A stretch of DNA of 36,908 nt from a virus. Both the position numbers and the translations under genes were made by a program. The stretch lies in the IMG/VR virus record IMGVR_UViG_3300027974_000077, positions 1 through 36,908 of that record; one strand, written 5' to 3'. Under the pieces are notes generated by a model. That model was not told the origin of the DNA. It made no database searches and saw only the letters and a program-made list of their open reading frames with translations. Below, piece by piece: positions 2,014-36,156 of this stretch (positions are counted from its first letter, which is position 1; every line of letters begins with the position of its first letter).

Positions 2014-2019
2014 ATATAG

Positions 2020-2700: not shown

Positions 2701-2716
2701 AAAATAATACCTGCTA

Positions 2717-2725: not shown

Positions 2726-2750
2726 TAACTATCAACCTAACGGAGGAAAA

Positions 2751-3080
2751 ATGACTGACAATGTAGAAAATACTGTTCAAAAGTTAAGACTTGTTGACGG
2801 TACAGAGTTTGAAGTAAAACCGCTAAAGATTTCACTATTGCGACCATTCATGAAGAAGTTTACTGGTCTAACAGAAGTAGCGGATGATAATGACAAGTCA
2901 ATGGATCTACTGCTCGACTGCGTTCAAATTGCATTTAAGCAATTCTATCCAGATCTTGCAGAAGATAGAGAAAAACTTGAAGAAAGCCTAGACCTTCCAA
3001 CGGTCTACAAGATCATCGATGCAGCATCTGGATTCTCACTTTCAGATACAACAGCACTCGTTGGTCAAATGTCAAAATAA
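2751..3080 (+). CDS. Tail assembly chaperone, short form (G-like)
   Basis: A 109-residue protein that is a paralogue of the N-terminal half of the preceding gene product, with shared blocks around residues 22-36 and 79-96. It lacks the C-terminal extension, so it matches the short (G) chaperone that is normally made in excess over the long form. It has a perfect extended -10 promoter and a strong GGAGG binding site, and uses more C-ending codons than the long paralogue, consistent with higher expression. It lies 17 bases upstream of the tape measure gene. I looked for a slippery heptamer leading into a downstream frame near its end and found none that would extend it usefully. Confidence 0.75.
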   Translation: MTDNVENTVQKLRLVDGTEFEVKPLKISLLRPFMKKFTGLTEVADDNDKSMDLLLDCVQIAFKQFYPDLAEDREKLEESLDLPTVYKIIDAASGFSLSDTTALVGQMSK

Positions 3081-3097
3081 AAAAGAGGGTGTAATGA

Positions 3098-6000: not shown

Positions 6001-9000
6001 ACTTGTCGGTGCAGATTTTGACAAGATTCATGCCCAGGCAGAAATTTATGACAAGGCATTGCTTCAAAAAATTCAGGCATGGAATCAAGAAAATGCAGGG
6101 AAAAAGATTCCAGAGCCTTTCACAGATGATGTATTCTTAAAGTTAGAGTCAGAAGTTAGAAAAGACATAGACTCCCTTATTCCTGATTTTAAGGCTGTAA
6201 TTGAAACAGCAAAAAGAACTATCACTGCACTTAGAACATCTATTAAGCAAGAAGATCTTGGACCAATTAATGATCGCCTTGCAAAAGCAGGTGCTGGAAC
6301 TCTTGGTCCAAAAGCAAGTAATGCAAAATATGGAAATGTTGAAGCAAGAACTGCATCAGAGGTTCTTGGAACTATAGATGATCTTCCAGAAAGTGTTGAA
6401 AAGAGTTTAACCAAAGCAGAACAGATAGCACAAACTGCTTCACCTTCAAAGAGAACTAGAAAACTTGGACAAGATATTGGAGATGGACTTATTGAAGGCA
6501 TGAAGTCTAGAGAAGCAGGTGTGGCTTCACAATCAGATAGACTTGCAAACGCTGCATCAAATATTGATACTGCAAATCTTGAAAAATACAGGATTATGAA
6601 AGAAGATCCTGAAATGCGTCAAAGACAAAAGTCTATAGACAGACACTATAGAAAATTAACTGGAAAGTTAGTAACTACTACAAAATTAAATGATGCAATT
6701 GCAAGACAAACAAAAACTACGAGTGTAAATGTTGCTGAGTCTGCTGCACAAGAGCAAAGACTAAATGATTTAAGACAACAAGAGATTATTGCAAAAGAGC
6801 AAGCAGTTAGAAATGCACAGGATGCAGCAGCAGCAGGGAACTACCCAGGAACATCTCAGTCAGATCTTGTTGCTGGAGATATAGGGTTTATTGGACCACT
6901 TACACCAGAACAACAAAAAACAAATGCTGCAAACCTTAAAGCACAAAGAAAATTAGAAGTTCAGCAGGCAAGGGGAATGCGTAGAGAAGCAGTTGGGCAA
7001 TATTCTGGTAAGGTTGCAGGAGCACTTGGTACTGCTGCAATGGTTTCTGGTATGGCTGGAGCACCAACACAAGTCACAGCAGCACTTGGAACTGGATCTA
7101 TGGTTGCATCATTTGCACCAATGCTTGCTGGTCTTAGCGGTCCACAGGGTCTTGCACTTGGAGTGGCAGCAGCAGCGGGATCTGTATGGCTAATGAAGAA
7201 ACACTTTGATGCTACAGTTAAGAAGCAAGTTGATTATATTAATTCTATATCTGCAACAACAGATAAGATGAAGAAAATTGGTGAAATAACAGGTAAGGTT
7301 GGAGCCTCAGAACTTTATTCAAGAAAGAGACAAGAAGGCAGTGCTGATAGATATACAAAGATATTTGAAAGAGGAAAGAGTCAATTTGGAACAGATTTCT
7401 TCCAATCAGATGTTGGAAAGTCTATAAAAGAATCTTTTGTAAAAGATCTTGCAGCAGGTGGAGATCAAGCATCTAAAAAACTAGCATTGCAACTTTCTGC
7501 TTATATTTCTGATGGAATATTAACTGCTGAACAAGCATATAGCGTAGCAAGACAAATTGGCTTAGATCTTGGCAACATGACAATTGGAACAAAGATTCAA
7601 GGTGAAATAACAAATCTCGTTGGACCAGATGGCCAAAACTTACTTGTTGATCCGCTTACAATTAGAATTAAAATAATTAATACGCAAAATGAAATTACAG
7701 ATGCAATGACAACGGCTGCAACAAATGCTCAAAGAACTGGTAGTGCATCTTCTGCCTCTACAGATTCTTTTGCTGCAGCACAGGCACTTCAGTCTCAAAA
7801 TCTAACCATTATACAGGCTCAAAGAGATGCACAAAAGAAAATGTATGATGATGAAATACGCAAACTTGAAGCACAAAAACTAGCAACTGCAGATAAAGCA
7901 AAACAATTAGTAATAGATGGAAAGATAGAAGATGTTAAAAAACGACAAGCAAAAGATGATGCAAAATTAAACTCATTTACAGCAAAAAGTTTAAAACAAA
8001 CTTCAGACTTATTTGATAAATCATTAAAGGGTAAACTTCCTGGTCAGATAGGTATGAATAAGAATGCAGTTATTTCTGCATCAAGAAATGCTGTTTCTGC
8101 AAAATATACTGGAGATGCAGCCCCACTTGCCAAAGCGTTGCTTTCACAAACCAAGGGACTTAAATCAGAAAAGATAGAAGTTTTAATTAACACATTGGTT
8201 TCTGGCGGTCAACTAGATACTGTTTCTGCAACAAACTTATTAAATATATTTGGCAAAGATGAAAATGGCATGTATACACAAATTACAGCAGCACTTAAAA
8301 TGCAAGATCCTGGCAAGGTTCAGCAACTGCTTACAATACTTTCTAATTTTGATGAAGAAACTGCAAAAGATATTTTTGTAAAGATGACATCAAAAGAAGG
8401 TGCAGCAACATTTGAAAATAATATGAATACCTTAAGTTCTTTAATGCAACTTGATGGTAAAGAGTTAGACTTAGAAGTATTCTTAAAAACAAAGGGAAAC
8501 CTAGAAAAACTAAGTGCACTATTAGATAGCGTAGATAGTAAAATTGGAACTGAGCCTGTAACTCTTACTGTAATAGAAGACATAGTTAAGGCAAATCCAG
8601 ATATGCCAGACATGACGGCTTTAATAAGTGATTGGGATAAGTGGAAAGATAAAGATCCAAAAATTCAAAAGAGTGTTGTTCTTACATATATAGAACTTTA
8701 TAAAACAATCGGAAAATCAGAAATTGCACAGTACAGAAAAAATAAATCTATACCATCAGTAGTAACCGACTCTGCCGTTACTGGAATGATTGCAAATGAT
8801 CTATTGCCAAACAAAGTTCCAACATCAATTCCAAGCAACAAGCCAGGACCTGCTTCAAATACAAATTCAACAGGAGCAAATCCACTAGACTTCCTTGACT
8901 CACTTGCAATGAGAATTAAAAATGTTCGTGACGGAGCCTTCGATGCAACAACCCCACTTAAATCTATGATTGCAGCATTTAGTGGAAAGCAGGCTCAAAA

Positions 9001-12157: not shown

Positions 12158-15100
12158 ATGTTTCAAAATGATGAATTAAAAAATCATCTTCAAACATCTT
12201 CAGTTATTAGAACTAACTCTGCTGTAATTGCTGAGTGGAATATGAACATACCAGAAAATATTCAAAAGATTGGCAATTATAGATATAGACCAACACAAGA
12301 TAGTTCTGTATATAAAAATATTATTTCTAGTTTTAATGATGGAGAAGACAAAAATACACAGGTCCCGTTTTACTATGGAGCAACCGATGCTGATGTAACA
12401 ATTGATGGCGGAATGGACGATATAAATCAGCCAACACTACTTACTTCTAGAAAAGAATACATTAAATTACTTTATTCGCTAGAAAACTGTTTTTATAAAT
12501 TTAGACCAAGATCAGGTATTAATAAGTCTTCTTATTTTTCAAACTCATATATTCATAATGCTAATTCAGATATGGCAAAAAGACCAAGATATTATATGCC
12601 AGATAAAGGCGATTACTTTAAATACTGGACATCTTATAGAACTGAAAATGGTTCTGAGTACGGTGTTGCAAATAAAACCTTAAATGGCCAATACTTCATT
12701 GAGGATACAGCACCATTTGTTGTTTATAAAAATAAAATTCCAGTAAATAGAGTTGTAGTAAAAATGCAAACACATATTGGCTCTGTTGACCTTGGTCCAT
12801 TTTCAACATCTTCTAAATCATTCTCAGACCCATTCTATGGTGATGCAAATAAAAAGACACCAGTTAAATGGAAGATTCAAGCACTTAAAAATAATAACTG
12901 GGTTGACATAAAGAAATTTGATGCAAGCACAAGAAGAAAAAATGGTACATCAATAATTGGTTCAGATGGATACGTAGAACTAGCATATGGATTAATCGTT
13001 CCAGATAAATATCAAGATACATTTATTAGAGCAGAAGAACATGCTACAACATCAACTTTACCAGAAACATCAATAAATGGTTATGCATATTTAGTTAAAG
13101 AAAATGAAGATTCTTTAGGCACGTATCATATTTGGGTATCAGATAAGTATGAGACCTTTGTTCCAACATATGGCTGGTATGTAAGTGAAGAAACAGTAGA
13201 TAGATTAACTAACTTTGTTACAGATACAACATCTCCAATTCAGTACTCAAATGCATCTGATGGTTTGCCAATGTATAGAGAGTTTGATTATATTAATGGC
13301 TTAAGAATTGTTGTTGATACAATGACAAGGGCTGACTCAACTTTTGATCTAATTGAACTATCACCAAGATTAGTTGTAGATTTATCAGGAAAGACAGTTG
13401 ATTTTTCAATAACAAAAACGGCATCTGATTTAGGATCTTCTGGCCTTCCAGTTGGTCAATTGCTTGCATCAAATGGAACCCTAAAACTATTTGACTACGA
13501 TCAAGCATTTAATCCAAATAATAACAACAGTATTATTAAAAACTATATAACTAAAAATATACAAGTTAAGTTTTATGAAATAATTATGAATGTAAATGGG
13601 TATGATTATTTTGTTCCAATTAAGACAATGTATACAGAAGGTTTTCCAGAGTCAAACAATGAAACAAGACAAGTTTCTTTAAAATTAAGAGATCTATTCT
13701 TTTACCTAGAATCAATCAATGCCCCACAACTGCTAGTTACAAATGTATCTCTTAGTTATGCAGTCTCAACACTTTTAGATTCAATTGGTTTTACCAACTA
13801 TTCATTTAAAAGAGTAGATGGTGAAGTTGATCAGATTATTCCATACTTCTTTATTCCGCCAGACACTAGCGTTGCTGAACTATTAAATCAATTAGCGATA
13901 TCAACACAGACAGCAATGTTCTTTGATGAATATAATAATTTTGTAATGATGAGTAAAAATTACATTCTTCCAAAAGAGTCAGAAAGAGAAACTGATTTTG
14001 AATTTTATGGTACCAAAGATTTTATTGAAGAAGGTGCAATTAATAACAAAACTACCAATGAAAAACTTGCAAACATAATTTCTATTAACTCTCAAAATAA
14101 TGAAATTTTTAATGATGGAAGTATTAACTATAAGACAAGATATATTCAAAAAACATATGGATCAATTAGGCAAGCAAGCATTATTGATCAGGAAAAAACA
14201 TGGATATACAAACCAGTATTATTGTGGGAAGTTGCTGGGGACGATAATACAAAGTCTATTAATGATCAAGCAAATAAGCAGTCTAGTTATGTTTTGGGTG
14301 CTATACCACTTAACTCTGATTTATCCGATACAGTTCCAAGCGTTTCTAATAATATAATGATTAATAATACAATGGATTTAGGAGAGGGCATTTATTGGCT
14401 TTCAAGATACAATGGATATTTTTATGCAAATGGAGAAATCATAAAATATGATGCAGTTCAGTATAGTGTCAGCGGTATTGGCAATGTATGGATTACAAGT
14501 GTAACTGATTATCAAAACTATTTTTCCAAACTAAGTCATAATGGAAAGATCTATCCAACAGGATTGGTGAGAATTTATTCATATCCAAATTATCAAACTA
14601 TAAATGGAATCACTAAATTAAAAAATGGAGAAGTAGCAAAGCACGGTAGAGGTCAGTTTGGCACAAGTGTTCTAAAGCACAATGCTGGCTTAAATTCATA
14701 CTGGTCCGATAATGCAAATGTTCGTGGCTGCTCAATGAAGTCTGATTATTTGTTTAGTCTTGCAAGTAAAACTGAAGCAGATGCAAAGATTGCACTTTTA
14801 ACATTAGACAATCTTGCAGCAGGAGTTAGCAATGATTTGGCAACTCAATCCACTAGATCAGGAATTATGAAAAATTTCTTGTCTCAATATTATGGCACAG
14901 AAAAAGATTTTAATAAACTTAAAACAACCCAAACTGGAACAATCCAGTCGTCTGCATTTATTTTAAATGGTCCATCTTTTACAACTACTCAAAAAGGCAT
15001 TGACTTTATTTCGTATGTACATAAACCATTGACAGACTCATTTAAACATTTTGGTACAAGAATGAGAATTGTTGGTAAAATTGAAAATAACCAGAACCGT

Positions 15101-16477
15101 GGTCAGACTCCAATTGGTAGTGATACATACTTTGTGGTAACTGGTAATTCTCCAGATCAAAATATTAATATTAGTGCTGGTTCTGGCGGATTAGCCGTTA
15201 TGCTAAATCCAACAACAAATGTTGGATACTATTTTGAAATTTTAGCACTAACAGAAAATAACATCAGTAGTTATAATAAATCTGCTGAAAATCTTCACAA
15301 TGTAATCTTTTATAAGATAAAGCGTGACTCTGCCACATCCGATGCTATACCAGTTAAACTTTGGGGTGGTCTTGCAAGCATAACAGTTGACGATGGAAAG
15401 TTTACTGGTCAATACAGAATGGTTGGCGAGCAAAATCCAACGGTATATGATTTAGCAGTTGAGTATAGAAATATTGGAAACAGTAGAAGGTTCTACTTAT
15501 ACATAAACAACAAACTTGTTGCAACTGTTGACGATACTTCTCCTTTGCCAGTATATAACAATATGGCTATGTTTGTAAGAGGATCTGCAAGATGTATGTT
15601 TGAAAATATCTACGCATTAACAAATAATTATAGTCAAAATACAACCTTTGCTCTTGATACACCAGTTATGTCAGCGATTAATGATTCTGAGATAGATGCA
15701 AATGAATCATTCAGAAAATATGCAATGAGTGGTATTGTTCAATCAACCTATTTATCTGGTATTAATCCGTCTCAGCCACCACAATATAATATGTACTTTG
15801 AAGAATTTGGTACCATTATGAGAGAAGCAGCATACTTTAATATTCGTTATGACAAAGCCTATCCAGCATTATATGCAAAACTGTCTCCAACATTTAATAA
15901 GATTAAGGGGTATACAGTATCTGGATTTAGAGCAGGATCTTATGGAGCAGAATTTTTAATATTCAATGCAACAGATACCGCACTAAGCCTAGATGAGACA
16001 ACTGGCAATTACTTAAGAATTCAAGGTATAACTTTTACACAAGAGTCACAACACCAATTGACAATGGATGAGTATTTTAATAAAAATAGTGATTTTTCAA
16101 ATCCTCAACTAAGCGGATCAACACTATTAAAATCTCCTATAAAGTATGATAATGATTATCAAGATATTAAAGTAAGCAGAATTACCTATGGTAAAAAAGA
16201 TTTTTCATTAGAAACACCATACATACAAACACAAGATGACGCAAACAGGCTAATGGAGTGGATTGTCAATAAAGTTGTTAAGCCAAGAAAATCTGTTAGT
16301 CTTAAGGTTTTTGCAACACCAACAGTTCAACTAGGAGATGTTGTCACTATTGACTATAAGGATAAAGACTCAGTAAATCAAATATCATCATCTAACTCTA
16401 GGTTTGTAGTATATAATATAGAGTATGCTAAAAGTTCTGGAGGGCCAGATATGACTGTTTATCTGAGCGAAATTTAA
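12158..16477 (+). CDS. Tail hub / baseplate protein with carbohydrate-binding-like domains
   Basis: A 1439-residue protein behind GGAAGAGG. Four parts can be seen. Residues ~150-290 resemble a galactose-binding beta-sandwich (NRVVVKMQTHIG, then WKIQALKNNNWVDI). Residues ~380-620 look like a gp27/Tal-type hub (DTSVAELLNQLAISTQTAMF). Residues ~930-1155 look like a concanavalin/LamG-type jelly roll (FYLYINNKLVATVDD, MFENIYALTN). The C-terminus returns to a hub-type segment (VQLGDVVTIDYKDKD, residues ~1390-1402). The protein probably forms the tail tip and may bind host surface sugars. Its place after the Dit-like gene supports a baseplate role. Domain names are from sequence pattern and should be taken as provisional. 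Confidence 0.65.
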   Translation: MFQNDELKNHLQTSSVIRTNSAVIAEWNMNIPENIQKIGNYRYRPTQDSSVYKNIISSFNDGEDKNTQVPFYYGATDADVTIDGGMDDINQPTLLTSRKEYIKLLYSLENCFYKFRPRSGINKSSYFSNSYIHNANSDMAKRPRYYMPDKGDYFKYWTSYRTENGSEYGVANKTLNGQYFIEDTAPFVVYKNKIPVNRVVVKMQTHIGSVDLGPFSTSSKSFSDPFYGDANKKTPVKWKIQALKNNNWVDIKKFDASTRRKNGTSIIGSDGYVELAYGLIVPDKYQDTFIRAEEHATTSTLPETSINGYAYLVKENEDSLGTYHIWVSDKYETFVPTYGWYVSEETVDRLTNFVTDTTSPIQYSNASDGLPMYREFDYINGLRIVVDTMTRADSTFDLIELSPRLVVDLSGKTVDFSITKTASDLGSSGLPVGQLLASNGTLKLFDYDQAFNPNNNNSIIKNYITKNIQVKFYEIIMNVNGYDYFVPIKTMYTEGFPESNNETRQVSLKLRDLFFYLESINAPQLLVTNVSLSYAVSTLLDSIGFTNYSFKRVDGEVDQIIPYFFIPPDTSVAELLNQLAISTQTAMFFDEYNNFVMMSKNYILPKESERETDFEFYGTKDFIEEGAINNKTTNEKLANIISINSQNNEIFNDGSINYKTRYIQKTYGSIRQASIIDQEKTWIYKPVLLWEVAGDDNTKSINDQANKQSSYVLGAIPLNSDLSDTVPSVSNNIMINNTMDLGEGIYWLSRYNGYFYANGEIIKYDAVQYSVSGIGNVWITSVTDYQNYFSKLSHNGKIYPTGLVRIYSYPNYQTINGITKLKNGEVAKHGRGQFGTSVLKHNAGLNSYWSDNANVRGCSMKSDYLFSLASKTEADAKIALLTLDNLAAGVSNDLATQSTRSGIMKNFLSQYYGTEKDFNKLKTTQTGTIQSSAFILNGPSFTTTQKGIDFISYVHKPLTDSFKHFGTRMRIVGKIENNQNRGQTPIGSDTYFVVTGNSPDQNINISAGSGGLAVMLNPTTNVGYYFEILALTENNISSYNKSAENLHNVIFYKIKRDSATSDAIPVKLWGGLASITVDDGKFTGQYRMVGEQNPTVYDLAVEYRNIGNSRRFYLYINNKLVATVDDTSPLPVYNNMAMFVRGSARCMFENIYALTNNYSQNTTFALDTPVMSAINDSEIDANESFRKYAMSGIVQSTYLSGINPSQPPQYNMYFEEFGTIMREAAYFNIRYDKAYPALYAKLSPTFNKIKGYTVSGFRAGSYGAEFLIFNATDTALSLDETTGNYLRIQGITFTQESQHQLTMDEYFNKNSDFSNPQLSGSTLLKSPIKYDNDYQDIKVSRITYGKKDFSLETPYIQTQDDANRLMEWIVNKVVKPRKSVSLKVFATPTVQLGDVVTIDYKDKDSVNQISSSNSRFVVYNIEYAKSSGGPDMTVYLSEI

Positions 16478-16478
16478 T

Positions 16479-16967
16479 ATGGCAAGTGCAATACCACTTA
16501 CACCAGATACTACTGCATCTAACGCAGATACAGGGGTACTTGCTGCAACCACCAACCTTATAATTACAAGTTATGATGAAACACCTTTAGAGGTAATGAC
16601 TGATCTTATATTTGAAGATATAGGTGGTCAAGAAATTATTAATATATCCAGAACTGACATTGTTAATGGTCAGGATATTATTTATCAACCAATTAAAAAT
16701 TTGGCAAGCATTAACTATCAGTATAATCCGCAAAATATTTTGGCCCTACAAGATACATCTGAGAACTATTTTAAAAAATTTCCAATTAATGCAGCAAACA
16801 AAGTTCCAACCACTGGAACAGGAGAAAATGGATCAACAGTTTACATCGATGAGGCTACGGGAAATCTAGTTATTGAACTAGTAAATGTAGAGGATGATGA
16901 GCAAGTAGAAGTTCAAATACTAAGAAATGGAAAATTTTTTAATGATACAATATATGAGGTGCAATAA
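16479..16967 (+). CDS. Baseplate or fibre-associated protein, unknown
   Basis: A 162-residue acidic protein starting one base after the hub stop and overlapping the next ATG by one base. It is polar, without signal peptide or membrane helix. Residues ~28-70 (IITSYDETPLEVMTDLIFED) and a C-terminal beta strand pair (GNLVIELVNVEDDEQVEVQI) are its main recognisable parts. The position between the hub and a fibre-like gene suggests a small tail-tip subunit. I do not recognise a family. Confidence 0.55.
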   Translation: MASAIPLTPDTTASNADTGVLAATTNLIITSYDETPLEVMTDLIFEDIGGQEIINISRTDIVNGQDIIYQPIKNLASINYQYNPQNILALQDTSENYFKKFPINAANKVPTTGTGENGSTVYIDEATGNLVIELVNVEDDEQVEVQILRNGKFFNDTIYEVQ

Positions 16968-23328: not shown

Positions 23329-26300
23329 ATGTCTTACGTAGGCTTACACGTACATACCCACTACTCGTTATTTGACGGGATTGCTACTCCAGAAGAATAC
23401 ATTGACCGTGCAGTTGAGTTGGGGATGCCAGCAATTGCCATCACTGACCACGGTACTTTATCTGGGCATAGGGAACTGCACCGCATTGCAAAAGCAAAGG
23501 GTATTAAGCCTATACTTGGCGTAGAAGGCTATATGTGTAAAGATAGATTTGATACTAGAGATAAGTCTGAAAGAGACGGAGATCTAGATCTAGTTTATAA
23601 CCATATAGTACTTCTCGCCAAGAACCAAATTGGTTTAGAGAATTTAAATAAGATTAGTGAGATATCCTGGACAGAGGGATATTTTAAGAAGCCAAGGTTT
23701 GACTTTGAGATTCTTGAAAAGTATTCAGAAGGAATTATTGTCACATCTGCATGTCCAAGTAGTGTGCTTGTAAAGGCACTTGAGAATAATGAGTTTGCTA
23801 TAGCAAAAGATTATATTCAATGGTTTAAGCGTGTATTTAATGATGATTACTATATTGAGGTCATGCCACATAATGAGGCAGAAATAAATAAACAATTAAT
23901 TCAATTGGCAGATGAGTTTAGTGTAAAGGTTGTTGTAACCCCAGACTGTCATCACAGTTCAACAGATCAAAAAGAAATTCAAGAGTTTAAGTTGCTACTT
24001 AATACACATGTTAAGATTGATAAAGAACACACTTTTGAAAAGTCAAAGAAAAAAGAGAATATGATGGAACGCCTTGACTATCTTTATGGTGAAGACCGTC
24101 AAATCACATTTAACAAGTTTGACATTCATTTGCTTTCTTATGAAGAAATGAAGTCTGCTATGGAAGCACAGGGTATTGATCGTCCAGATATTTATACAAA
24201 TACTTTAGAGGTTGCTGAAAAAGTTGGTGACTATGGAATTCAAGAAGGACTAGACCTACTTCCAGTCCAATATAAAAATCCAGATAAAGAATTAAAAGAA
24301 CTAGCCCTTGCTGGATTAACTGAGCGTGGTGTAGATGGTCAGGAATATTTGGATAGACTTGATGAAGAGTTGCAAGTAATTAAAGATAAAAAGTTTGCTC
24401 CTTACTTTTTGGTTGTACGCAATATGATTGCATGGGCAAAAAAAGAAGAGATTATGGTGGGTCCTGGTCGTGGATCTGCAGCAGGATCACTGTTATGCTA
24501 TGCACTAAGAATTACTGACATTGATCCAATTAAGCATGGACTATTGTTCTTTCGCTTTATTAATCCAGATCGAAATGACTTTCCAGATATTGATACAGAT
24601 ATTCAAGACTCTCGTCGTGAAGAAGTAAAAGATTATCTTGTTAGACAATATCGACATGTTGCATCTATTGCGACATTCCTTTCGTTTAAAGACAAGGGTG
24701 TTGTACGAGATGTTGCACGAGTTTTAAATATTCCACTTACTGATGTGAATAAAGTTCTTAAACTTGTTGATACTTGGGATGAATATTGCACATCAAAAAC
24801 AACACGGGAATTCCGTGAGAAATATCCAGAGGTAGAAATTTATGGAGAACAACTTCGTGGTCGTATTAGAGGTACTGGCATCCACGCTGCTGGTGTTGTC
24901 ACTAGTAAAGATCCTATTTTTAGGTACGCACCAATGGAGACACGCTCTTCTACTGGTAGCGATGAGCGTATTCCTGTTGTTGCAGTTGACATGGAAGAGG
25001 CTGAAAAGATTGGTTTAATCAAGATTGATGCACTGGGACTAAAAACTCTTTCAGTTCTTAAGGATACACTTGATATTATTGAGGAGAGAGACAACAAGAA
25101 AATTGACCTTCTTAAGATAGATATGGATGATAAAAATGTATATCAAATGCTTTCAGATGGATACACAAAGGGTGTGTTTCAGTGTGAAGCAGCACCATAC
25201 ACAAACTTGCTAATTAAAATGGGTGTAAAAAACCTATCAGAACTTGCAGCATCAAATGCTTTGGTTCGTCCAGGTGCAATGAATACAATTGGTAAGGATT
25301 ATATTGACCGTAAGCATGGTCGTCAAAATATTGGTTATACACACCAAGTACTTAAAGAATTTACGGAGGAAACATATGGTTGTATTCTTTACCAGGAACA
25401 GGTTATGCAAGCATGCGTATCGCTTGGCGGTATGTCCATGTCGGAAGCAGACAAAGTTAGAAAAATCATTGGAAAGAAAAAGGATGCTAAAGAGTTTGAT
25501 CAGTTTAAAGAAAAGTTTGTAGAGGGTGCATCTAAGTTTGTTTCACCAAACATGGCTAGAGATCTTTGGCATGACTTTGAGGCTCACGCAGGGTATTCAT
25601 TTAATAAGTCTCACGCAGTAGCATACTCAACGCTATCATACTGGACAGCATGGCTTAAGTATCACTATCCAATAGAGTTTATGTACTCACTACTAAAGAA
25701 TGAAAAGGACAAAGATGCAAGAACTGAATACCTTATTGAGGCAAAAAGAATGGGCATTAGCATTAAACTACCTCACATTAATGACTCAGATATTGATTTT
25801 AAAATTGAAGGCAAGGGTATTAGATTTGGTCTTACTGCTATTAAGTATATTTCCGATAAAATTGCAGAGCGTTACATTTCTGCAAGACCTTTCTCTTCGT
25901 ATGCTCAACTTGAAGAGTTTACTTTTACTAAAGGAAATGGAGTTAACTCTCGTGCTCTTCAAGCATTACGAGTTATCGGCGCAGCGACATTTAATGATAA
26001 TCCAAGAAATGACGAAGAGATTAAACAAAATCTCTACGAATATTTAAACCTACCAGAATTTAATATTACGGTTCCATCTCATTATTACGGCTTTATAACA
26101 GAGGCTCAGGATTATGAAGAAAAGGGTTCTTTGATTGTAATGGGTATGGTAAAATCTATTAAAAGAGCAAAAGGTTGGTCAAGAGTAGAACTATTAGATA
26201 AAACAGGAAGTGTAGGAATTTTTGATGAAGAGCAAACAACTATTGAAGCAGGCGTATCGTATCTCATTCTTGTTAATGATAATCGGATTCTTTCTGCTAT

Positions 26301-26601
26301 CCCTATCGATCAAATAAAAGGTTCAACATCTGGTCTTGTTAAATTTTTAAATTACAAACAATTACCATATAAAGATAACGAGATGTTTGTTTTGTCATTT
26401 AAACCAAGAGTTACAAAGGCTGGAAAAAAGATGGCATCTTTAACAGTTGCAGATACAGCAAGAGATCTTCACTCAATAACTGTATTCCCAACATCTTTTG
26501 CAAAGGCATATATGAAAATTGAAGAAGGAAATGCATATAATTTTAGTTTAGGAAAAACTAAAGATGGAACAGTCATATTGGAGGATGTAAATGTCAGTTA
26601 G
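23329..26601 (+). CDS. dnaE: DNA polymerase III alpha subunit (DnaE-type)
   Basis: A 1090-residue family C replicative DNA polymerase. The N-terminal PHP domain keeps metal ligands (H7-x-H9, D40-H41, E66, and PDCHHS), so it may still proofread or hydrolyse phosphate. The palm shows PGRGSAAGS, then catalytic D420 and D422 in DFPDIDTD and D567 in KIDALGLKTL. GTGIHAAGVV and the helix-hairpin region follow. An OB fold lies near residues 935-970 (IVMGMVKSIKRAKGWSRVEL). The size is close to bacterial DnaE. It starts 3 bases after the SSB stop and overlaps the recombinase by 11 bases. Confidence 0.93.
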   Translation: MSYVGLHVHTHYSLFDGIATPEEYIDRAVELGMPAIAITDHGTLSGHRELHRIAKAKGIKPILGVEGYMCKDRFDTRDKSERDGDLDLVYNHIVLLAKNQIGLENLNKISEISWTEGYFKKPRFDFEILEKYSEGIIVTSACPSSVLVKALENNEFAIAKDYIQWFKRVFNDDYYIEVMPHNEAEINKQLIQLADEFSVKVVVTPDCHHSSTDQKEIQEFKLLLNTHVKIDKEHTFEKSKKKENMMERLDYLYGEDRQITFNKFDIHLLSYEEMKSAMEAQGIDRPDIYTNTLEVAEKVGDYGIQEGLDLLPVQYKNPDKELKELALAGLTERGVDGQEYLDRLDEELQVIKDKKFAPYFLVVRNMIAWAKKEEIMVGPGRGSAAGSLLCYALRITDIDPIKHGLLFFRFINPDRNDFPDIDTDIQDSRREEVKDYLVRQYRHVASIATFLSFKDKGVVRDVARVLNIPLTDVNKVLKLVDTWDEYCTSKTTREFREKYPEVEIYGEQLRGRIRGTGIHAAGVVTSKDPIFRYAPMETRSSTGSDERIPVVAVDMEEAEKIGLIKIDALGLKTLSVLKDTLDIIEERDNKKIDLLKIDMDDKNVYQMLSDGYTKGVFQCEAAPYTNLLIKMGVKNLSELAASNALVRPGAMNTIGKDYIDRKHGRQNIGYTHQVLKEFTEETYGCILYQEQVMQACVSLGGMSMSEADKVRKIIGKKKDAKEFDQFKEKFVEGASKFVSPNMARDLWHDFEAHAGYSFNKSHAVAYSTLSYWTAWLKYHYPIEFMYSLLKNEKDKDARTEYLIEAKRMGISIKLPHINDSDIDFKIEGKGIRFGLTAIKYISDKIAERYISARPFSSYAQLEEFTFTKGNGVNSRALQALRVIGAATFNDNPRNDEEIKQNLYEYLNLPEFNITVPSHYYGFITEAQDYEEKGSLIVMGMVKSIKRAKGWSRVELLDKTGSVGIFDEEQTTIEAGVSYLILVNDNRILSAIPIDQIKGSTSGLVKFLNYKQLPYKDNEMFVLSFKPRVTKAGKKMASLTVADTARDLHSITVFPTSFAKAYMKIEEGNAYNFSLGKTKDGTVILEDVNVS

Positions 26602-27601
26602 TGTAGAAGAGGCGATGGCCCAACTTGATCCAAAGTTAAGAAAAAAATTAGGAACAGGAGTAGGGGTAAACTATGAATACCAGCCTACCCCAAGTTATGG
26701 TTTAAACCGTGCTCTAGGAGGTGGACTTCCTTATGGTAGACAAGTTCTTATCTGGGGTTCAAAGTCATCTGCAAAGTCCTCTATGTGCCTTCAAATGATC
26801 GCTCTAGCACAAGCAGAGGGTAAACTCTGTGCATGGATTGACTCAGAAATGTCATACTCAGAAGACTGGGCTAGAAGTCTTGGTGTAGATCCAGAAAAAC
26901 TAATCTACTCACAAGCAAGAACTATAAGTGACATGGTAGATGTAGGCGTTGGACTAATGAACGCTGGAGTTGATTTAATTGTGGTAGACTCTATTACATC
27001 AATGCTTCCTGCAATTTATTTTGAGAAGGACACAGACGAAATGAAGGCTTTGGAAAATACAAAGCAGATTGGAGCAGAGTCTCGTGACTTTAGTAACGCA
27101 TGGAAAATGCTTAACTATGCTAATAATAAAGTTAAGCCTACTCTTCTTGTTCTCATTTCTCAGTCTCGCAATAATATTAATGCTATGTATACTAGCCAGC
27201 AGCCTTCTGGTGGTCAGGCTACTAAGTTTTATTCTTCTTGCATTGTTAAATTATTTAGTTCCGAATCAGATAATCAAGCAATTAAAGGAAAAATTAAAGT
27301 AGGAGATAAGTTAATTGAAGAAAAAATTGGAAGAACCATTCGTTGGGAACTTCAGTTTTCTAAAACTTCTCCAGGTTTTCAGTCTGGTGAATATGATTTT
27401 TATTTTAGAGGTGATGATATTGGTCTTGATACCATTGGTGACTTGGTTACTACAGCAGAACTAAACGGTATTGTAGAACGCACAGGAGCATGGTATATTC
27501 TTCCTGATGGCTCAAAGGTGCAAGGTAAAGAGGCATTTGTCAATCGTGTAAGAGAGGATCTTGATTTGCAAGAATCAATCAAGGCAAAACTAAATGCCTA
27601 G
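26591..27601 (+). CDS. RecA/UvsX-like recombinase
   Basis: A 336-residue strand-exchange ATPase. The N-terminus has LNRALGGGLPYGR as in RecA (ALG-GG-P-GR). Walker A at residues 56-63 is GSKSSAKS, with Ala in place of the usual last Gly. Walker B is LIVVDSITSM. The segment ISQSRNNINAMYTSQ followed by PSGGQATKFYSS corresponds to loops and the C-terminal part of the core. The protein probably pairs ssDNA with homologous duplex for repair and recombination-dependent replication, working with the gp32-like SSB and the nearby resolvases. Its ATG overlaps the polymerase stop by 11 bases behind GGAGG. Confidence 0.85.
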   Translation: MSVSVEEAMAQLDPKLRKKLGTGVGVNYEYQPTPSYGLNRALGGGLPYGRQVLIWGSKSSAKSSMCLQMIALAQAEGKLCAWIDSEMSYSEDWARSLGVDPEKLIYSQARTISDMVDVGVGLMNAGVDLIVVDSITSMLPAIYFEKDTDEMKALENTKQIGAESRDFSNAWKMLNYANNKVKPTLLVLISQSRNNINAMYTSQQPSGGQATKFYSSCIVKLFSSESDNQAIKGKIKVGDKLIEEKIGRTIRWELQFSKTSPGFQSGEYDFYFRGDDIGLDTIGDLVTTAELNGIVERTGAWYILPDGSKVQGKEAFVNRVREDLDLQESIKAKLNA

Positions 27602-27771: not shown

Positions 27772-28419
27772 ATGAATAATTTTCCTATGTATACAAAAAC
27801 AAAAGCAGAAGACTTTATTGACAATCAAGATTTTCCTGTTGTGCAAATTGAAAACATTTTATCTGACGAGCATATTGCAGAAATATATTATAAGGTTGCT
27901 CAGACAGATGACTCCCAAACAATAACTCAGCCTTGGGCTGGGCACAAAGCATATCATACTAAATTTTCAAATGATGTTATTAGTCAAATAGAAAAAAGAG
28001 TATCAGAAATAGTTGGTGAAGAAATGATTATGGCTGAATATTCTTTTGCCAGATACTCAGAAGAGTATGGTTATAAGTGCAAACTATTCCCACACTATGA
28101 TACAAAAAAGTCACAAAGGGTAACATGTGATATTCAACTAGAATCAAATGAGGATTGGGGAATTATAGTAGAGGGTGAACAGTACAATCTAAACTACAAT
28201 GATGCCTTGATCTTTGCGGGAAGCCAACAGATGCACTGGAGAGAAGATAAGCGGATAGGACAAGATACAAAAATTGATATGATGTTTTGTCATCTTGTAT
28301 ATAAAAATGATAGACCTCTTCAGGAAAATCATGTAGCCATATTAGAAAAAAGAACTCGTGCCTTAATGATGGACACGGGGATTGATAGTCAGATAGAAAC
28401 AAATGACAGAAAAGAGTGA
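27772..28419 (+). CDS. 2-oxoglutarate/Fe(II) oxygenase-like protein, copy A
   Basis: A 215-residue protein with the Fe(II) triad of 2OG oxygenases: H108-x-D110 in LFPHYD and H155 in QQMHWRED, with R157 directly after. The HWRE context resembles prolyl-hydroxylase-like oxygenases of cyanophages. I start at ATG 27772: an in-frame ATG at 27670 would add a basic stretch lying inside another gene, and the TATAAT fits 27772. Two further homologues follow (28707, 29369); shared landmarks are EYSFARY, FPHYD, a DWG/SWG strand and the HWR. The substrate is unknown: protein side chains, nucleotides or DNA bases are all possible. Confidence 0.7.
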   Translation: MNNFPMYTKTKAEDFIDNQDFPVVQIENILSDEHIAEIYYKVAQTDDSQTITQPWAGHKAYHTKFSNDVISQIEKRVSEIVGEEMIMAEYSFARYSEEYGYKCKLFPHYDTKKSQRVTCDIQLESNEDWGIIVEGEQYNLNYNDALIFAGSQQMHWREDKRIGQDTKIDMMFCHLVYKNDRPLQENHVAILEKRTRALMMDTGIDSQIETNDRKE

Positions 28420-28687
28420 GTCAAAAAGAATTGGTGCAAAACAGCACAAGAATTCTGGTAGAAACACACATAAAGGTGATGCAACATGGCAAAACTTTAC
28501 TGTAGATTTTAAAGAGGCTTCAAAGTCTTTCACATTAAATAAAGATGTATGGGCAAAGGCCACAACAGATGCAATTAAAAATAATAGCGATCCGTTAATA
28601 ATAGTTGTTCTTGGCTCTGGAAATACAAAAGTTAGACTTGCTATACTGGAATTTGATTTATTAGATCAAATTCTAGATGGTGTATAA
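28403..28687 (+). CDS. PD-(D/E)XK Holliday junction resolvase-like nuclease
   Basis: A 94-residue protein between oxygenase copies A and B, overlapping A by 17 bases. HKGDATWQNFTVDFKEASKS gives the phage resolvase signature: D26 after KG, then D35-x-K37 as the catalytic D/E-x-K, followed by SFTLNKDVWAKA and a strand LIIVVLG. The size matches small Hjc-like phage nucleases (~90-110 residues). It probably cuts branched DNA in recombination or packaging. A RuvC-like enzyme of unrelated fold is encoded 3 kb downstream. Its stop TAA lies in a TATAAT box. Confidence 0.65.
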   Translation: MTEKSESKRIGAKQHKNSGRNTHKGDATWQNFTVDFKEASKSFTLNKDVWAKATTDAIKNNSDPLIIVVLGSGNTKVRLAILEFDLLDQILDGV

Positions 28688-28693
28688 TATAAT
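28683..28693 (+). promoter_or_regulatory. Tandem TATAAT promoter before oxygenase copy B
   Basis: Two overlapping TATAAT hexamers (28683-28688 and 28688-28693) follow each other. The first contains the stop codon TAA of the resolvase gene. Unlike the leaderless cases, an AAAGGAG (28695-28701) precedes ATG 28707, so a short leader with a ribosome binding site is likely. Confidence 0.45.
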
Positions 28694-28706
28694 AAAAGGA
28701 GATACT

Positions 28707-29366
28707 ATGAAAAAAGATTTACCAAACGTATTAATCGACAATGCTTTAACACAAGAAGATGTATCAGAAATATATAAGATTGTTTCTTCAACTACCAGCC
28801 AAACCTTTGTTGAAGATCTTGGATATAACAGTTGGCATATTCAATTACCACAACATATTATTGATAAGTTTACAAAATATGCTGAGGGTATTGCTGGAGA
28901 ATCATTAGTTCTAAAGGAATATAATTTTTCTAGATATCAAAAAACAGTTTCAAATTGTGGAAAGTATACTTTTTATCCATTACTCTTTCCACATACTGAC
29001 GAGGTATTTAATGAGTCAAGACTCACTTTAGACTATCAGATAGGTTCAAATGTATCTTGGGGAATTACAGTAGATAACTGGGAGTCTGAAGCAACATATA
29101 CACTCAAAGACAATCAACTACTTTCTTTTTCTGGTTCTCATCAGGTTCACTGGAGACCAAAAAGAGAATTTGTAGATGGTGAATTTTTAGAAGCAATATT
29201 TTTGCACTTCTCACCAACTACATCAGAAACCCTCACTGCTGATCATGTAAACATTATGAGAGAAAGAGCAAAAGAAAAATATATAGTTTGGAATGATGAA
29301 ACGGGTGCTTCATCTAACAAGTCAGAAGACGGCTTGCTAAAGTACAATCCGAAAGAGTCAAATTAA
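28707..29366 (+). CDS. 2-oxoglutarate/Fe(II) oxygenase-like protein, copy B
   Basis: A 219-residue homologue of the genes on either side, with H96-x-D98 in LFPHTD and H148 in SHQVHWRPK as likely Fe(II) ligands; R150 or the following Lys/Arg could bind 2-oxoglutarate. I start at ATG 28707 because AAAGGAG lies 5 bases before it; ATG 28677 overlaps the resolvase end and lacks a binding site. Landmarks EYNFSRY, a SWGI strand and QVHWRPKREF align with copies A and C, and B is closest to C around HWRPKR. All triad residues are present, so it is probably active. Substrate unknown. Confidence 0.7.
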   Translation: MKKDLPNVLIDNALTQEDVSEIYKIVSSTTSQTFVEDLGYNSWHIQLPQHIIDKFTKYAEGIAGESLVLKEYNFSRYQKTVSNCGKYTFYPLLFPHTDEVFNESRLTLDYQIGSNVSWGITVDNWESEATYTLKDNQLLSFSGSHQVHWRPKREFVDGEFLEAIFLHFSPTTSETLTADHVNIMRERAKEKYIVWNDETGASSNKSEDGLLKYNPKESN

Positions 29367-29368
29367 TT

Positions 29369-30145
29369 ATGGCTGAAATTCACAAGTACCTAACTGATTT
29401 TAATAAATATAAAACAAAAGTTCCATTTTATGTAGATAATTTATTTACTGATGCTGAATCAAAACAGTTAATGGATATTATTTATCAAAATAAAAATATG
29501 CTAGATCCAGTTGTGCATAAACCAAATGAGCAGACTAGTGAAAAAAATTGGGATAGGTTTAGACCAAAAACAATTGAATATATGTCAAGAGTGCTTGTTG
29601 AGTTTCAGATGCCCAAAAACTTAGAAGAAAAACTAGACAATATTGCAAAACCAATTTATGATGGAGATGTCGCTCTATGTCATTATAACTATATTGAATA
29701 TAATAAAAAGTATGGCAATGGAAATAATAGTCCAAAGTTGCCTCCACATATAGACGCAGATGAAAATCTAATAACTATTAATCACTGTGTTGATGGAAAC
29801 ATTGAGTGGGATCTTTATATTGGAAACCAAGAAGACGGGACCACCTTTACAAGATATACACTAGAGCCTGGGCAAACAATAGTTTTCAGTGCAGTCAATC
29901 AGGTTCACTGGAGACCAAAGCGCAAATTTAAAGATGGCGAGTTTCTTGAGATTGTTAGCATGGACTATTGTCCAATAACTAACTATAGGTTTACTGGAGA
30001 AATGAATCCACTAGATGCATACACATATCCAGAAAAAAGAAGCGCTTACACAAATTCTTTAAACTATTTGCCAGAATTTAAAGCAGCGTGGAATCTTTAT
30101 CATCAGGATGGTATGAAAGACGGAGTAATTGGAGATGATTTTTAA
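29369..30145 (+). CDS. 2-oxoglutarate/Fe(II) oxygenase-like protein, copy C
   Basis: A 258-residue third homologue starting 3 bases after copy B. Fe(II) ligands are H127-x-D129 in LPPHIDAD and H180 in NQVHWRPKRKF, with R182 following. It differs from A and B by an insertion of about 25 residues before the core (KPNEQTSEKNWDRFRPK) and an extra C-terminal segment of about 45 residues rich in Tyr (DAYTYPEKRSAYTNSLNY). These additions suggest a different substrate or partner. The ribosome binding site is weak (GAAAGAG, 12 bases upstream), so translation may depend on coupling to copy B. Confidence 0.7.
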   Translation: MAEIHKYLTDFNKYKTKVPFYVDNLFTDAESKQLMDIIYQNKNMLDPVVHKPNEQTSEKNWDRFRPKTIEYMSRVLVEFQMPKNLEEKLDNIAKPIYDGDVALCHYNYIEYNKKYGNGNNSPKLPPHIDADENLITINHCVDGNIEWDLYIGNQEDGTTFTRYTLEPGQTIVFSAVNQVHWRPKRKFKDGEFLEIVSMDYCPITNYRFTGEMNPLDAYTYPEKRSAYTNSLNYLPEFKAAWNLYHQDGMKDGVIGDDF

Positions 30146-30447
30146 TGGAAGAAAAAACAACTATTGATATGGTAAATGGTCTTGTAGAAATTGCAGACTA
30201 TATGGAAGATGAAGAACTGACAACTGCATTAACAATGATTGCTAAACTAATTATAAAGCCAGATATCCCAATCAATGTTGCTCATGTAGAGATTGTAAGG
30301 CTTCAGGCAATCGCAGCAAAGATGGCATTTAAAGCAACATGGATGGCAAATGTAGATAAATCTGATAGAGGCAAAAAAAATCTTTACTACACTGCTGCTG
30401 AATCAATTAACAATTTAGTGTCTGCACTGAAATACATCACACGCTGA
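30145..30447 (+). CDS. Hypothetical helical protein
   Basis: A 100-residue protein that appears all-helical (VNGLVEIADYMEDEELTTAL, then VEIVRLQAIAAKMAFKATWM). The ATG overlaps the copy C stop by one base with GGAG 10 bases upstream. No membrane helix or metal motif is seen. The helical repeat could be a dimerising or adaptor protein. It closes the oxygenase transcription block, as a new promoter follows it. Confidence 0.6.
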   Translation: MEEKTTIDMVNGLVEIADYMEDEELTTALTMIAKLIIKPDIPINVAHVEIVRLQAIAAKMAFKATWMANVDKSDRGKKNLYYTAAESINNLVSALKYITR

Positions 30448-30488: not shown

Positions 30489-31340
30489 ATGACAAAAAAT
30501 TTACTAAAGCAAGTTATGATTAGACCAGAAACAAGCAATAAATTGGAAGAGCCAACTTTTACTGATGGACTTATTGAGGCAATTAGGAATGGCTATACAG
30601 TTAACCTAAAACCACGCTTTCAAAAGAAGACAACCTTTGCTCCTTCATCTTTGACATACGGAGCAGGTGAGTGTGCTAGATATTGGTACCTTGCATTTGA
30701 GGGTGGTATTTTTCACGATGATGCAGATGCTTTTGGTGTAGCAAACAGAACCAGCGGAACACTGAGCCATGATAGAATCCAAGATGCTGTTATGAATGCT
30801 GGGCTTTTGGCAGAAGATATGGAGTTTGATCCAGAACCAAGCAAGTACAAGAAGCAAATTCATCCAGCATTAGAGTTTAGAATCAAGCATGATGACCCAC
30901 CAATTTCAGGGTATGGCGATGTAATGCTTAATTATAATGGTCAAACTATTCTTGGTGAAATTAAAACCATGATGAATGAAGGCTTTGAGTATAGAAAAGC
31001 AAGCAGGAAGCCAAAGACTGGCCACCTAATGCAATTAATTATGTATATGAAGATTCTCAAGAAAGATAAGGGTGCATTGATTTATGAAAATAAAAATAAC
31101 CATGATCTACTTATTATTCCTGTAGAAGTAAACGATCATTACCGTCGGTGGGTAGACCAGGCATTTGATTGGATGCGAACAGTTCGCAAGGCATGGGAAG
31201 ATAAAACTTTGCCTCAAAAAACATATAGATCAAATTCAAAGATCTGTAAGGTTTGTCCATTACAAAAAACATGTGCCGAAGCAGAGACAGGGGTAATTAA
31301 AATTAAACCTCTGGAGTTGCTAGAAGATGAAGCATTGTAG
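30489..31340 (+). CDS. Cas4/RecB-like PD-(D/E)XK exonuclease
   Basis: A 283-residue nuclease. The catalytic set is H94 (LSHDR), D144 in GYGDVML, E157-x-K159 in GEIKTM, and Q182 with Y186 in the QLIMYM motif. Four cysteines, C62 (GECARYW) and C253, C256, C262 (CKVCPLQKTC), are placed as in Cas4 and AddB-type enzymes, which hold a 4Fe-4S cluster. No CRISPR array or other cas genes are near, so a role in end resection for recombination with the RecA-like protein and SSB is more likely. It overlaps the next gene by 14 bases. Confidence 0.82.
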   Translation: MTKNLLKQVMIRPETSNKLEEPTFTDGLIEAIRNGYTVNLKPRFQKKTTFAPSSLTYGAGECARYWYLAFEGGIFHDDADAFGVANRTSGTLSHDRIQDAVMNAGLLAEDMEFDPEPSKYKKQIHPALEFRIKHDDPPISGYGDVMLNYNGQTILGEIKTMMNEGFEYRKASRKPKTGHLMQLIMYMKILKKDKGALIYENKNNHDLLIIPVEVNDHYRRWVDQAFDWMRTVRKAWEDKTLPQKTYRSNSKICKVCPLQKTCAEAETGVIKIKPLELLEDEAL

Positions 31341-31611
31341 TTGGTGCGACAAAGAATTTAAAACAGATATCTCATATCAGATATACTGTTCTGTAGAGTG
31401 TAGAAATCATTCTACAAAAGAAAAGATTGCACAAAGATATTTGCTTACAAGAAGACAAAAAAGAAAAGGCAAGATGCGAACTTGTAAATCTTGTAAAAGA
31501 CAGTTGTCAATATACAATGATGATTCTTTGTGCTCTGGTTGTTTAATAAATCCTTCAGATGTTAGTCAAGCATTAAAAGAAATAAAAGGAAAAATAAATG
31601 GTACAAAATAA
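31327..31611 (+). CDS. Double zinc-finger protein
   Basis: A 94-residue basic protein with two Cys4 sites: C4, C7, C21, C25 (HCSWCDKEF, YCSVECRNH) and C53, C56, C69, C72 (TCKSCKRQL, LCSGCLI). A Lys/Arg-rich linker (TRRQKRKGKM) connects them, as in nucleic-acid-binding proteins. It overlaps the exonuclease by 14 bases and the RuvC-like gene by 14 bases, so the three are probably translated together. The role is unknown; DNA binding within the recombination set is plausible. Confidence 0.6.
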   Translation: MKHCSWCDKEFKTDISYQIYCSVECRNHSTKEKIAQRYLLTRRQKRKGKMRTCKSCKRQLSIYNDDSLCSGCLINPSDVSQALKEIKGKINGTK

Positions 31612-32188
31612 GTGGGGTGTAGAAATAAAACCAGAACAAATTTGTGCTATTGATGCTAGTACTAACAGTCTTGCCTATGCAACATTTCATGGTGAATACT
31701 TAAAAGAAGTTGGAAAGATTAATTTTGAAGGCAAAGATATATATGAAAAAGTAATTGACGCTGGCAGAAAGTCTAAAGGTTTATTTGAACATATTATAAA
31801 TGTAGATGCGATTGTAATTGAACATACAGTATTTATGAACAGCCCTAAGACTGCTGCTGATCTTGCGTTAGTCCAAGGTGCTTTATTAGGTGCAGCAGGT
31901 CAATCTGGCATTAGAACTATTGGCAAGGTGTCACCAATCACATGGCAAAACTTTATTGGAAATAAAAAGATTTCTAAAGATGAAAAATTATATATTAGGT
32001 CTCAAAGTCCAGGAAAATCTGAGTCATGGTATAAATCTTTTGAAAGGGATCTTCGCAAACAAAGAACTATCAACTTTATCAATATTCAGTATGATAAGAC
32101 TATTACTGATAATGATGTGGCAGATGCGTGTGGTATTGGTCATTGGGCTATAAAAAACTGGGACAAAGCAATAGGGGTTGACAAATAA
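31598..32188 (+). CDS. RuvC-like Holliday junction resolvase
   Basis: A 196-residue RNase H-fold nuclease. The first strand with D19 (CAIDASTNSLAYATF), E75 after the strand AIVIEH, and D173/D176 in DNDVADA form the four acidic residues of RuvC. The length is close to RuvC (~170). It has AAAAGGAAA upstream and overlaps the zinc-finger gene. It would resolve four-way junctions made by the recombinase or trim branched DNA before packaging by the terminase downstream. Confidence 0.75.
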   Translation: MVQNKWGVEIKPEQICAIDASTNSLAYATFHGEYLKEVGKINFEGKDIYEKVIDAGRKSKGLFEHIINVDAIVIEHTVFMNSPKTAADLALVQGALLGAAGQSGIRTIGKVSPITWQNFIGNKKISKDEKLYIRSQSPGKSESWYKSFERDLRKQRTINFINIQYDKTITDNDVADACGIGHWAIKNWDKAIGVDK

Positions 32189-35049: not shown

Positions 35050-36156
35050 ATGAACTCATTTAAGAAAATCGCACTAGCCATGGTTGCAGCCATGACTTTG
35101 GGCACAATCGTAGCAACACCTGCAAGTGCTGCTGTAATGACAGTCGCTGTATCGCTTGACTCTGTAGCAAACACTACAGCATCAGCAATCGCTACACCTG
35201 CATCATTGCCAGTCCCTGCAGACAACTCTGTTGATGCTGCTGACGCACTAAAGTTCGTCGCAACAGTTGATACAGGTTCTAGCGTAACTGTTTCAGCAAC
35301 AAACGCAACAATCGTGTCTGCACTACACACATCTGCTGCACCAGTAGGAGCAACATCAGGATCATCATCTTTAACAGTTGCAACTGGTACAGGAACAACA
35401 GCAACATTTTATGTCTACACAAAGACAACAGCAATTGGTACAGTTGTAATCAACAACCAGGGAACAACTCTTACATACTATGTACAGGGAACTGCTGGTA
35501 AGATTAACTCTCTTACAGTGTCTGCACCTACATCAGGTGCTGCTGGAACAAAGCAGGACATCACAGTAACTGCAACAGATACATTTGGTAACAAGGTATC
35601 AGGTAAGTCAATTACTGCAACAGTGTTTGCTTCTACAGCAACACTAGACACAGCAACAGCAACAACTGGTGCTACACTTTCAGATTTTGGAGTTGCTACA
35701 TTTAAGGCAACACTTCCAACAACTGGAACACGCTCACTAATCACATTCTCACCAACAACATCTTCTGATGCAACATCTGCTGATGTAACAGGTCTTCCTG
35801 CTCGTGCACTAGCACCATTTGCAGAAATCGCAGTTCGTGATCTAGTATCAGAACTTGCTGCACAGGTTGCTGCTAAGGATGCAGCCCTTGCTGCAAAGGC
35901 TGCTTCAGACGCTGCACTTGTTAAGGCAACAGCAGAGCACACTGCTCTAATTGCTGCTGAGAAGGCTGCTTCTGCAAAGGCACTTGCTGATGCAAAGGTT
36001 GTTTCAGATGCAGCAATCCTTGCTAAGGATGCACAGATTGCAAAGTTGACTGCAGATAATGCAGCAGCAGTTAAGTCAATCAAGGATGCTTTCAATGCAC
36101 TTGCAAAGAAGTGGAATGCAAAGAATCCAAAGGCAAAGGTTACTCTAGTTAAGTAA
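35050..36156 (+). CDS. Exported protein with Ig-like domain and coiled coil
   Basis: A 368-residue protein with a clear Sec signal peptide (MNSFKKIALAMVAAMTLGTI, cleavage likely after ASA at ~27). Thr/Ser/Ala-rich beta regions follow; residues ~152-240 resemble a bacterial Ig-like (Big/invasin) domain (KQDITVTATDTFGNKVSGKS). Residues ~255-350 form an Ala/Lys-rich helix likely to be a coiled coil (LAAQVAAKDAALAAKAASDA). It lacks a membrane anchor or LPXTG. Codons are C-rich and uniform, unlike the AT-rich neighbours. It has its own promoter, AAGGA binding site and terminator. It may coat the infected cell surface, block receptors or be released; the role is unknown. Confidence 0.75.
   Translation: MNSFKKIALAMVAAMTLGTIVATPASAAVMTVAVSLDSVANTTASAIATPASLPVPADNSVDAADALKFVATVDTGSSVTVSATNATIVSALHTSAAPVGATSGSSSLTVATGTGTTATFYVYTKTTAIGTVVINNQGTTLTYYVQGTAGKINSLTVSAPTSGAAGTKQDITVTATDTFGNKVSGKSITATVFASTATLDTATATTGATLSDFGVATFKATLPTTGTRSLITFSPTTSSDATSADVTGLPARALAPFAEIAVRDLVSELAAQVAAKDAALAAKAASDAALVKATAEHTALIAAEKAASAKALADAKVVSDAAILAKDAQIAKLTADNAAAVKSIKDAFNALAKKWNAKNPKAKVTLVK

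Follow-up and report, generated by a model that had tools for sequence, protein, structure and literature searches.

An exchangeable cassette of predicted Fe(II)/2-oxoglutarate-type oxygenases at a fixed site within a phage recombination block

Results

The window analyzed here is the whole of IMG/VR virus record IMGVR_UViG_3300027974_000077 (36,908 bases), and it contains three plus-strand genes, here called A, B, and C, that encode predicted Fe(II)/2-oxoglutarate (2OG)-type oxygenases. Copy A lies at 27772..28419 (215 amino acids [aa]; its frame opens at 27670), copy B at 28707..29366 (219 aa; frame opening at 28677), and copy C at 29369..30145 (258 aa), with a stop codon that overlaps the start of the next gene (TAATG); each belongs to an ortholog group of the same letter. 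It is well supported that the three belong to a previously undescribed family whose members occupy an exchangeable oxygenase cassette at a fixed site; they do not appear to be a component of the recombination machinery around them.

The first-pass annotation, made from the sequence alone, had proposed three homologous genes with complete active sites. All three open reading frames are co-oriented and intact, and the catalytic triads stand at the residues it had named (H108/D110/H155 in A, H96/D98/H148 in B, and H127/D129/H180 in C), with Trp-Arg after each distal His. The homology of the copies is well beyond chance (BLASTP, 104 bits and 2e-32 for A-B, 87 bits and 2e-25 for B-C, and 35.8 bits and 3e-7 for A-C). 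The landmarks they were said to share hold overall, but the SWG strand is exact in B only (DWG in A and EWD in C), and in place of the EYSFARY-type strand C has HYNYIEY. The neighbors are as described: a Holliday junction resolvase relative (28403..28687, plus strand; phrog_2002, 1e-20) lies between A and B, a UvsX/RecA-like recombinase (26591..27601, plus strand) lies upstream, and a gene with a Cas4 match, which we refer to as a Cas4-like nuclease (30489..31340, plus strand), lies downstream.

The active-site residues are strongly conserved across the family. Among 152 distinct sequences (after removal of those below 150 aa and of those wholly included in a longer one), the H-x-D...H triad and one Trp never vary, and 151 keep the Arg at the second position past the distal His (H+2), the sole exception being G003:60888, a marginal match that hits PF13640. 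In a partly overlapping survey set of 66 distinct sequences, both His residues, the Asp, and the Arg are kept in 65, while contig L164 has Arg in place of the first His. All three copies are under purifying selection. Ratios of nonsynonymous to synonymous substitution rates (dN/dS) relative to contig L011 were 0.043 for A, 0.065 for B, and 0.064 for C, compared with 0.030 for UvsX, 0.062 for the resolvase, and 0.068 for the phrog_9818 gene downstream of C. Relative to L008, A has 5 synonymous and 0 other changes, with ratios of 0.086 for B and 0.028 for C; relative to L009, A gives 0.054, all 3 changes in C are synonymous, and the 0.26 obtained for B comes from just 2 and 2 changes. Comparisons with the distant L065 and L054 gave values of 0.14 to 0.41 for A, B, and C, with dS saturated.

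None of the three copies matched a Pfam or NCBIfam model above its cutoff, and PF13640 (2OG-FeII_Oxy_3) gave no match for A, B, or C at E values up to 1. For 85 diverse members of the family (an alignment from which sequences of >300 or <165 aa and G003:60888 were removed), the 25 families listed, none with more than 3 matching members, did not include PF13640, while PHROG 2954, labeled "ferrochelatase," was matched by 59 of the 85 (A, 8.6e-12). A tblastn search with A, B, and C of 50,697 phage records, from which near relatives of the window may be left out, found only the cyanophages S-SM1 (two records) and S-SCSM2R. The S-SM1 genes SSM1_060 and SSM1_061 (L102, 3160-4276), annotated as ferrochelatase, carry H-x-D...HWR, and scans of A, B, C, and three cyanophage proteins gave no ferrochelatase Pfam match; the label of PHROG 2954 is therefore probably wrong. 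B has a weak NCBIfam match to FlmC (3.8e-4; 20.6 bits against a cutoff of 240), and in the openly licensed literature we found no paper joining FlmC and oxygenase and, in titles and abstracts, no description of such a cassette. A search of cellular genome contigs with profile A3 recovered no relatives, and a cyanophage-type query recovered 19 bacterial loci; the neighbors in the 7 loci inspected had no common theme, a weak result in that the frame chosen is wrong at least in our loci L230 and L234.

AlphaFold models of B and C, built from alignments of the 85 members, had predicted local distance difference test (pLDDT) scores of 95.0 and 92.0 and predicted template modeling (pTM) scores of 0.91 and 0.90, respectively, and structure prediction followed by fold search recovered the double-stranded beta-helix in both. 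In the VIA search, where score differences of <1 count as ties, the best matches of B included SnoN at 15.2 (root mean square deviation [rmsd] 3.4, 172 residues aligned), 6n1f at 14.3, PHD2 at 13.1, Pseudomonas putida prolyl-4-hydroxylase (P4H) at 13.0, and AlkB at 12.6, with OGFOD1 and 4iw3 (P. putida P4H with EF-Tu) at Z scores of 12.8 and 12.7; those of C included SnoN at 15.6 (rmsd 3.5, 182 aligned), 6n1f at 15.4, P4H at 14.8, PHD2 at 14.7, and 4iw3 at 14.2. The best PDB matches listed for both are 2OG oxygenases, and the nearest viral structure models are uncharacterized proteins of uncultured phages. The predicted fold of B and C is thus that of a 2OG oxygenase, but with differences of <1 counted as ties, it does not choose a substrate. 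Together with the conserved triad and Arg and the low dN/dS against near relatives, it bears out the earlier description of the copies as homologous, nondecayed oxygenases of the 2OG/Fe(II) type.

The content of the block varies among relatives. In 55 contigs reached through queries with A, B, or C, the gene order is UvsX-resolvase-[D-A2-A-B-C-E]-phrog_9818-Cas4-RuvC, with various members missing. Because such queries bias the copy count, we made a second survey with UvsX and no selection for oxygenases, taking the best 80 of at least 600 stretches (91 to 100% identical, near relatives only); four of these come from the clade of the window and had already been collected. The block is spanned in 75 of these loci and holds 0 to 5 copies at a fixed site: 40 loci have no family gene, 19 have one, 14 have three (those of L118 including one behind RuvC), one has four, and one has five; no two-copy block occurs among the 75. 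The cassette is bordered on the left, in most relatives, by the resolvase gene and on the right by a gene with unassigned function (phrog_9818; 30145..30447, plus strand). In empty alleles the end of the resolvase gene runs into the start of phrog_9818, with an overlap of a single base in 38 of the 40 and of 14 bases in the other 2, and the flanking genes through RuvC are visible in 38 of 40. In the 35 filled gaps every retained frame (plus strand, at least 60 aa, frames overlapped by a longer one being dropped) is a family gene. The family is absent from the cultured relatives BillNye and Samisti12, whose block is otherwise the same. With 40 of 75 loci empty and only family genes in the filled gaps, the data argue for an exchangeable cassette, and the functional embedding in DNA metabolism suggested by the first-pass annotation is not upheld; nor is the stepwise oxidation series it had raised favored, given that membership varies.

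Ortholog groups were clean and stable, and of 17 distinct single copies, 14 group beside C and 3 elsewhere, by a quick tree method that warns of long branches. On the UvsX tree, which need not equal the genome tree, cassette presence and absence require 14 changes, versus a mean of 25.3 and a minimum of 19 in 200 shuffles, so that presence is partly inherited, yet often gained, lost, or exchanged. The copies are not frequently broken: 11 matched stretches hold stop codons, yet an open family frame was called at each place, and these stretches therefore run past gene ends. The expectation that the copies would not be scattered holds for the block site, which is fixed, but some phages carry 1 to 4 more copies outside it. 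The A-resolvase-B arrangement was found in the window and in 8 of the 55 contigs; elsewhere the array usually runs unbroken behind the resolvase, and L057 has an A-type copy on either side of it. At the resolvase/phrog_9818 junction, in the loci compared (e.g., L109 versus L104), the resolvase gene of empty alleles ends in GGAGGAATAATG, a candidate ribosome-binding site for the next gene; in filled alleles different codons, such as GATGGTGTATAA, close the gene, and this 3' end varies with the cassette.

Whole-record searches of 13 cassette-bearing records recovered 3 to 9 family matches each, and no family match was found anywhere in seven zero-copy contigs of 41 to 105 kilobases (kb). Several records hold copies outside the block, which in the four records looked at sit among tail genes. 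Collagen-like genes (PF01391) exceed the cutoff in 9 of 13 array-bearing and 8 of 18 further records, and a PF11397 glycosyltransferase is present in 5 of 17 records in one search and in 8 of 18 in another; in G003, one nonblock copy directly precedes such a gene. Eukaryotic PF11397 enzymes act on a hydroxyproline of Skp1. In L084 (11046-12528), a family member is directly followed by a PF11397 (N-acetylglucosamine [GlcNAc]) glycosyltransferase (2.2e-33). In passages of a report on isolated Nanopelagicales phages, collagen-like proteins are placed in a variable tail island and the word oxygenase is absent (PMC10202952), and a study of pelagimyophages describes collagen repeats in structural proteins and a 2OGFeDO protein said to modify nucleic acids (PMC7029224).

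Other genes near the family or in its relatives deserve brief mention. In a phage free of the family, several genes of one run (L188, ~940-7580; G014, 78.9-85.6 kb) resemble other 2OG oxygenases by eye, and the one tested matched PF13640 at 2.4e-10; richness in oxygenases may thus extend beyond the family of A, B, and C. In L074 (11233-13376), a carbamoyltransferase (PF02543/PF16861) adjoins a PF13640 oxygenase, with a TP_methylase (PF00590) ~3.5 kb away. When gene content was compared between five contigs with the cassette, one with a single copy, and six with none, a few Pfam-less genes were seen only with the family (examples are the families of G001 14786-15445 and 16188-16853), but we attach no weight to this, as G014 alone among the zero-copy contigs is near genome size.

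The window matches a portion of G001, an IMG/VR record of 116,566 bases, almost exactly (18,194 bases at 99.995% and 18,468 bases at 99.2% identity). Among the matches shown, the best cultured ones are Streptomyces phages, with identities of 53 to 55% for the DNA polymerase, 54 to 56% for the terminase, and 46 to 48% for the recombinase, which suggests an actinobacterial host; BillNye and Samisti12 are members of the Stanwilliamsviridae. Besides the Cas4-like gene, the conserved flanks include a DNA polymerase III alpha gene (DnaE; 23329..26601, plus strand; 55% identity with Streptomyces phage BillNye) and a RuvC-like resolvase gene (31598..32188, plus strand). Directly behind the terminase gene, an open frame at 35050-36156 has a start that looks signal peptide-like by eye and lies in a stretch of raised GC content (0.44) and negative GC skew, and a similar gene is present in five compared relatives.

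Discussion

We consider the best explanation of these observations, at a probability of roughly 0.4, to be that A, B, and C are catalytically competent Fe(II)/2OG-type oxygenases of an optional cassette, each hydroxylating a site in a virion or tail protein. A protein substrate is our best guess, and virion or tail proteins are the first suspects. Each paralog would have its own target residue or segment in a phage protein, and the new hydroxyls could change the fiber in themselves or offer glycosyltransferases encoded by the phage a site for adding sugars. Host-driven selection on such decoration would account for rapid gain, loss, and exchange of the genes, and the neighboring recombination genes would be merely the cassette's address. 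A more elaborate version, in which the paralogs each modify their own sites and so lay down a combinatorial pattern of hydroxylation on the phage's tail or collagen-like fiber, PF11397 glycosylation follows, swaps change the surface, and the H+2 Arg binds 2OG, is in our judgment improbable as a whole.

A link to the tail is favored by eight records with a nonblock copy and a collagen hit, in which the nonblock copies included lie 1.5 to 5.6 kb from the collagen-like gene. Several observations weigh against the explanation. Two copies at a distance of >20 kb from the collagen gene, the marginal G003:60888 and G021:63532, a weak match (2.4e-4), are omitted from this list, as are the copies in G009, G022, and G028, records without a collagen hit. 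Of the 17 G records with collagen over the cutoff, 9 have no nonblock copy, and tail proximity may be inherited synteny. A strict partnership with collagen was rejected, as the zero-copy G014 (105 kb) and G015 carry a collagen-like gene, as was one with PF11397, which is present in 4 of the 7 zero-copy contigs; since both occur in zero-copy contigs, neither depends on the family. The fold of B matches AlkB within a tie of PHD2 (12.6 versus 13.1). Finally, the basic 2OG-binding residue expected ~10 positions after the distal His, which is an invariant Arg in four PF13640-type phage proteins, is not conserved in the 152 sequences (at most 11% Lys or Arg in columns 453 to 463), where Lys and Arg become frequent at just two loop positions, H+4 (47%) and H+5 (71%). 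Because this usual strand VIII Arg is not conserved, 2OG use by A, B, and C is something we infer, and the H+2 Arg may take over its part.

The proposal that the enzymes oxidize DNA bases in the manner of TET/JBP or AlkB, protecting or repairing phage DNA, was among the possibilities raised by the first-pass annotation and would suit a site between a recombinase and a Cas4-like nuclease. AlkB, besides its tie for B, also turns up when C is searched with Foldseek, and its absence from the 50 VIA matches listed for C proves nothing. We nevertheless regard this as the least probable of the alternatives. Neither a PF00145 cytosine methyltransferase, which BillNye has, was found in any of 13 array-bearing records, nor a thymidylate synthase-type gene (PF00303) in any of 13 records (G001 to G008, G014, G021, G022, G027, and G028, of which 10 have at least three block copies, G021 and G022 one, and G014 none), although the records may be fragments. 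JBP-type thymine oxidation needs no methyltransferase and may be compatible with this absence. PF12851 gave no hit for A, B, or C; across 15 records it gave sub-cutoff hits in 9 and none over the cutoff, and these fall outside family genes save for the marginal G003:60888. The empty blocks count against DNA as well, and the proteins are acidic (isoelectric points [pI] of 4.92 for A, 5.08 for B, and 5.21 for C; median of 5.30 and <7 in 98.7% of the 152), a weak argument in that the resolvase, Cas4, and RuvC proteins have pI values of 8.2 to 9.0 but UvsX, SSB, and DnaE have values of 5.3 to 5.8.

Hydroxylation of host proteins, such as translation factors or ribosomal proteins, could aid takeover of the cell, and the fold matches include 4iw3, in which P4H is bound with EF-Tu, and OGFOD1, which acts on a ribosomal protein. 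The block also holds replication and recombination genes and no structural genes. Frequent gain and loss among phages with at least 91% identical recombinases would be less expected for a conserved target, however, some copies lie among tail genes, and nothing links the family directly to a host target; we judge this unlikely, though less so than action on DNA. Oxidation of small molecules (amino acids, glycan sugars, nucleotides, or natural products) has a similarly low standing. SnoN, which acts as an epimerase in the biosynthesis of nogalamycin, is the top fold match of B and C alike, structures of lysine halogenases or hydroxylases (HalA, HalB, and BesD type) are listed as well, and related phages carry a carbamoyltransferase, glycosyltransferases, and methyltransferases, but the filled gaps showed family genes only and no pathway gene was found in the cassette.

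Comparison with known systems places protein hydroxylation by the cassette in context. PHD2 and bacterial P4H share the double-stranded beta-helix and a similar size with the modeled copies and are among their nearest solved folds, but there is no sequence-profile match in the PDB, and the cassette family differs in its invariant H+2 Arg. The cyanophage genes of PHROG 2954 (in S-SM1, where they form a tandem pair, and the 2OG oxygenase of S-SCSM2R) share H-x-D...HWR but number 2 and 1 matches per genome and have other genomic surroundings. The Mimivirus L230 lysyl hydroxylase/glucosyltransferase is likewise a 2OG hydroxylase encoded by a virus, and its substrate is a collagen-like protein of viral origin, but it is one bifunctional protein that has the usual Arg (H877, R887) and an activity shown by experiment (PMC9614988). 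By analogy, it offers a model of what could happen with the cassette oxygenases. The Stanwilliamsviridae BillNye and Samisti12 share the gene order SSB-DnaE-UvsX-resolvase-Cas4-RuvC-terminase and differ in having no family member and no collagen hit.

Many phage 2OG oxygenases are without a known role, and here an unnamed family occupies a fixed site that is either precisely empty or filled by as many as five paralogs. Location in a recombination block does not by itself make a gene part of recombination, and closely related phages with and without the cassette provide natural pairs in which the function of these enzymes can be tested.

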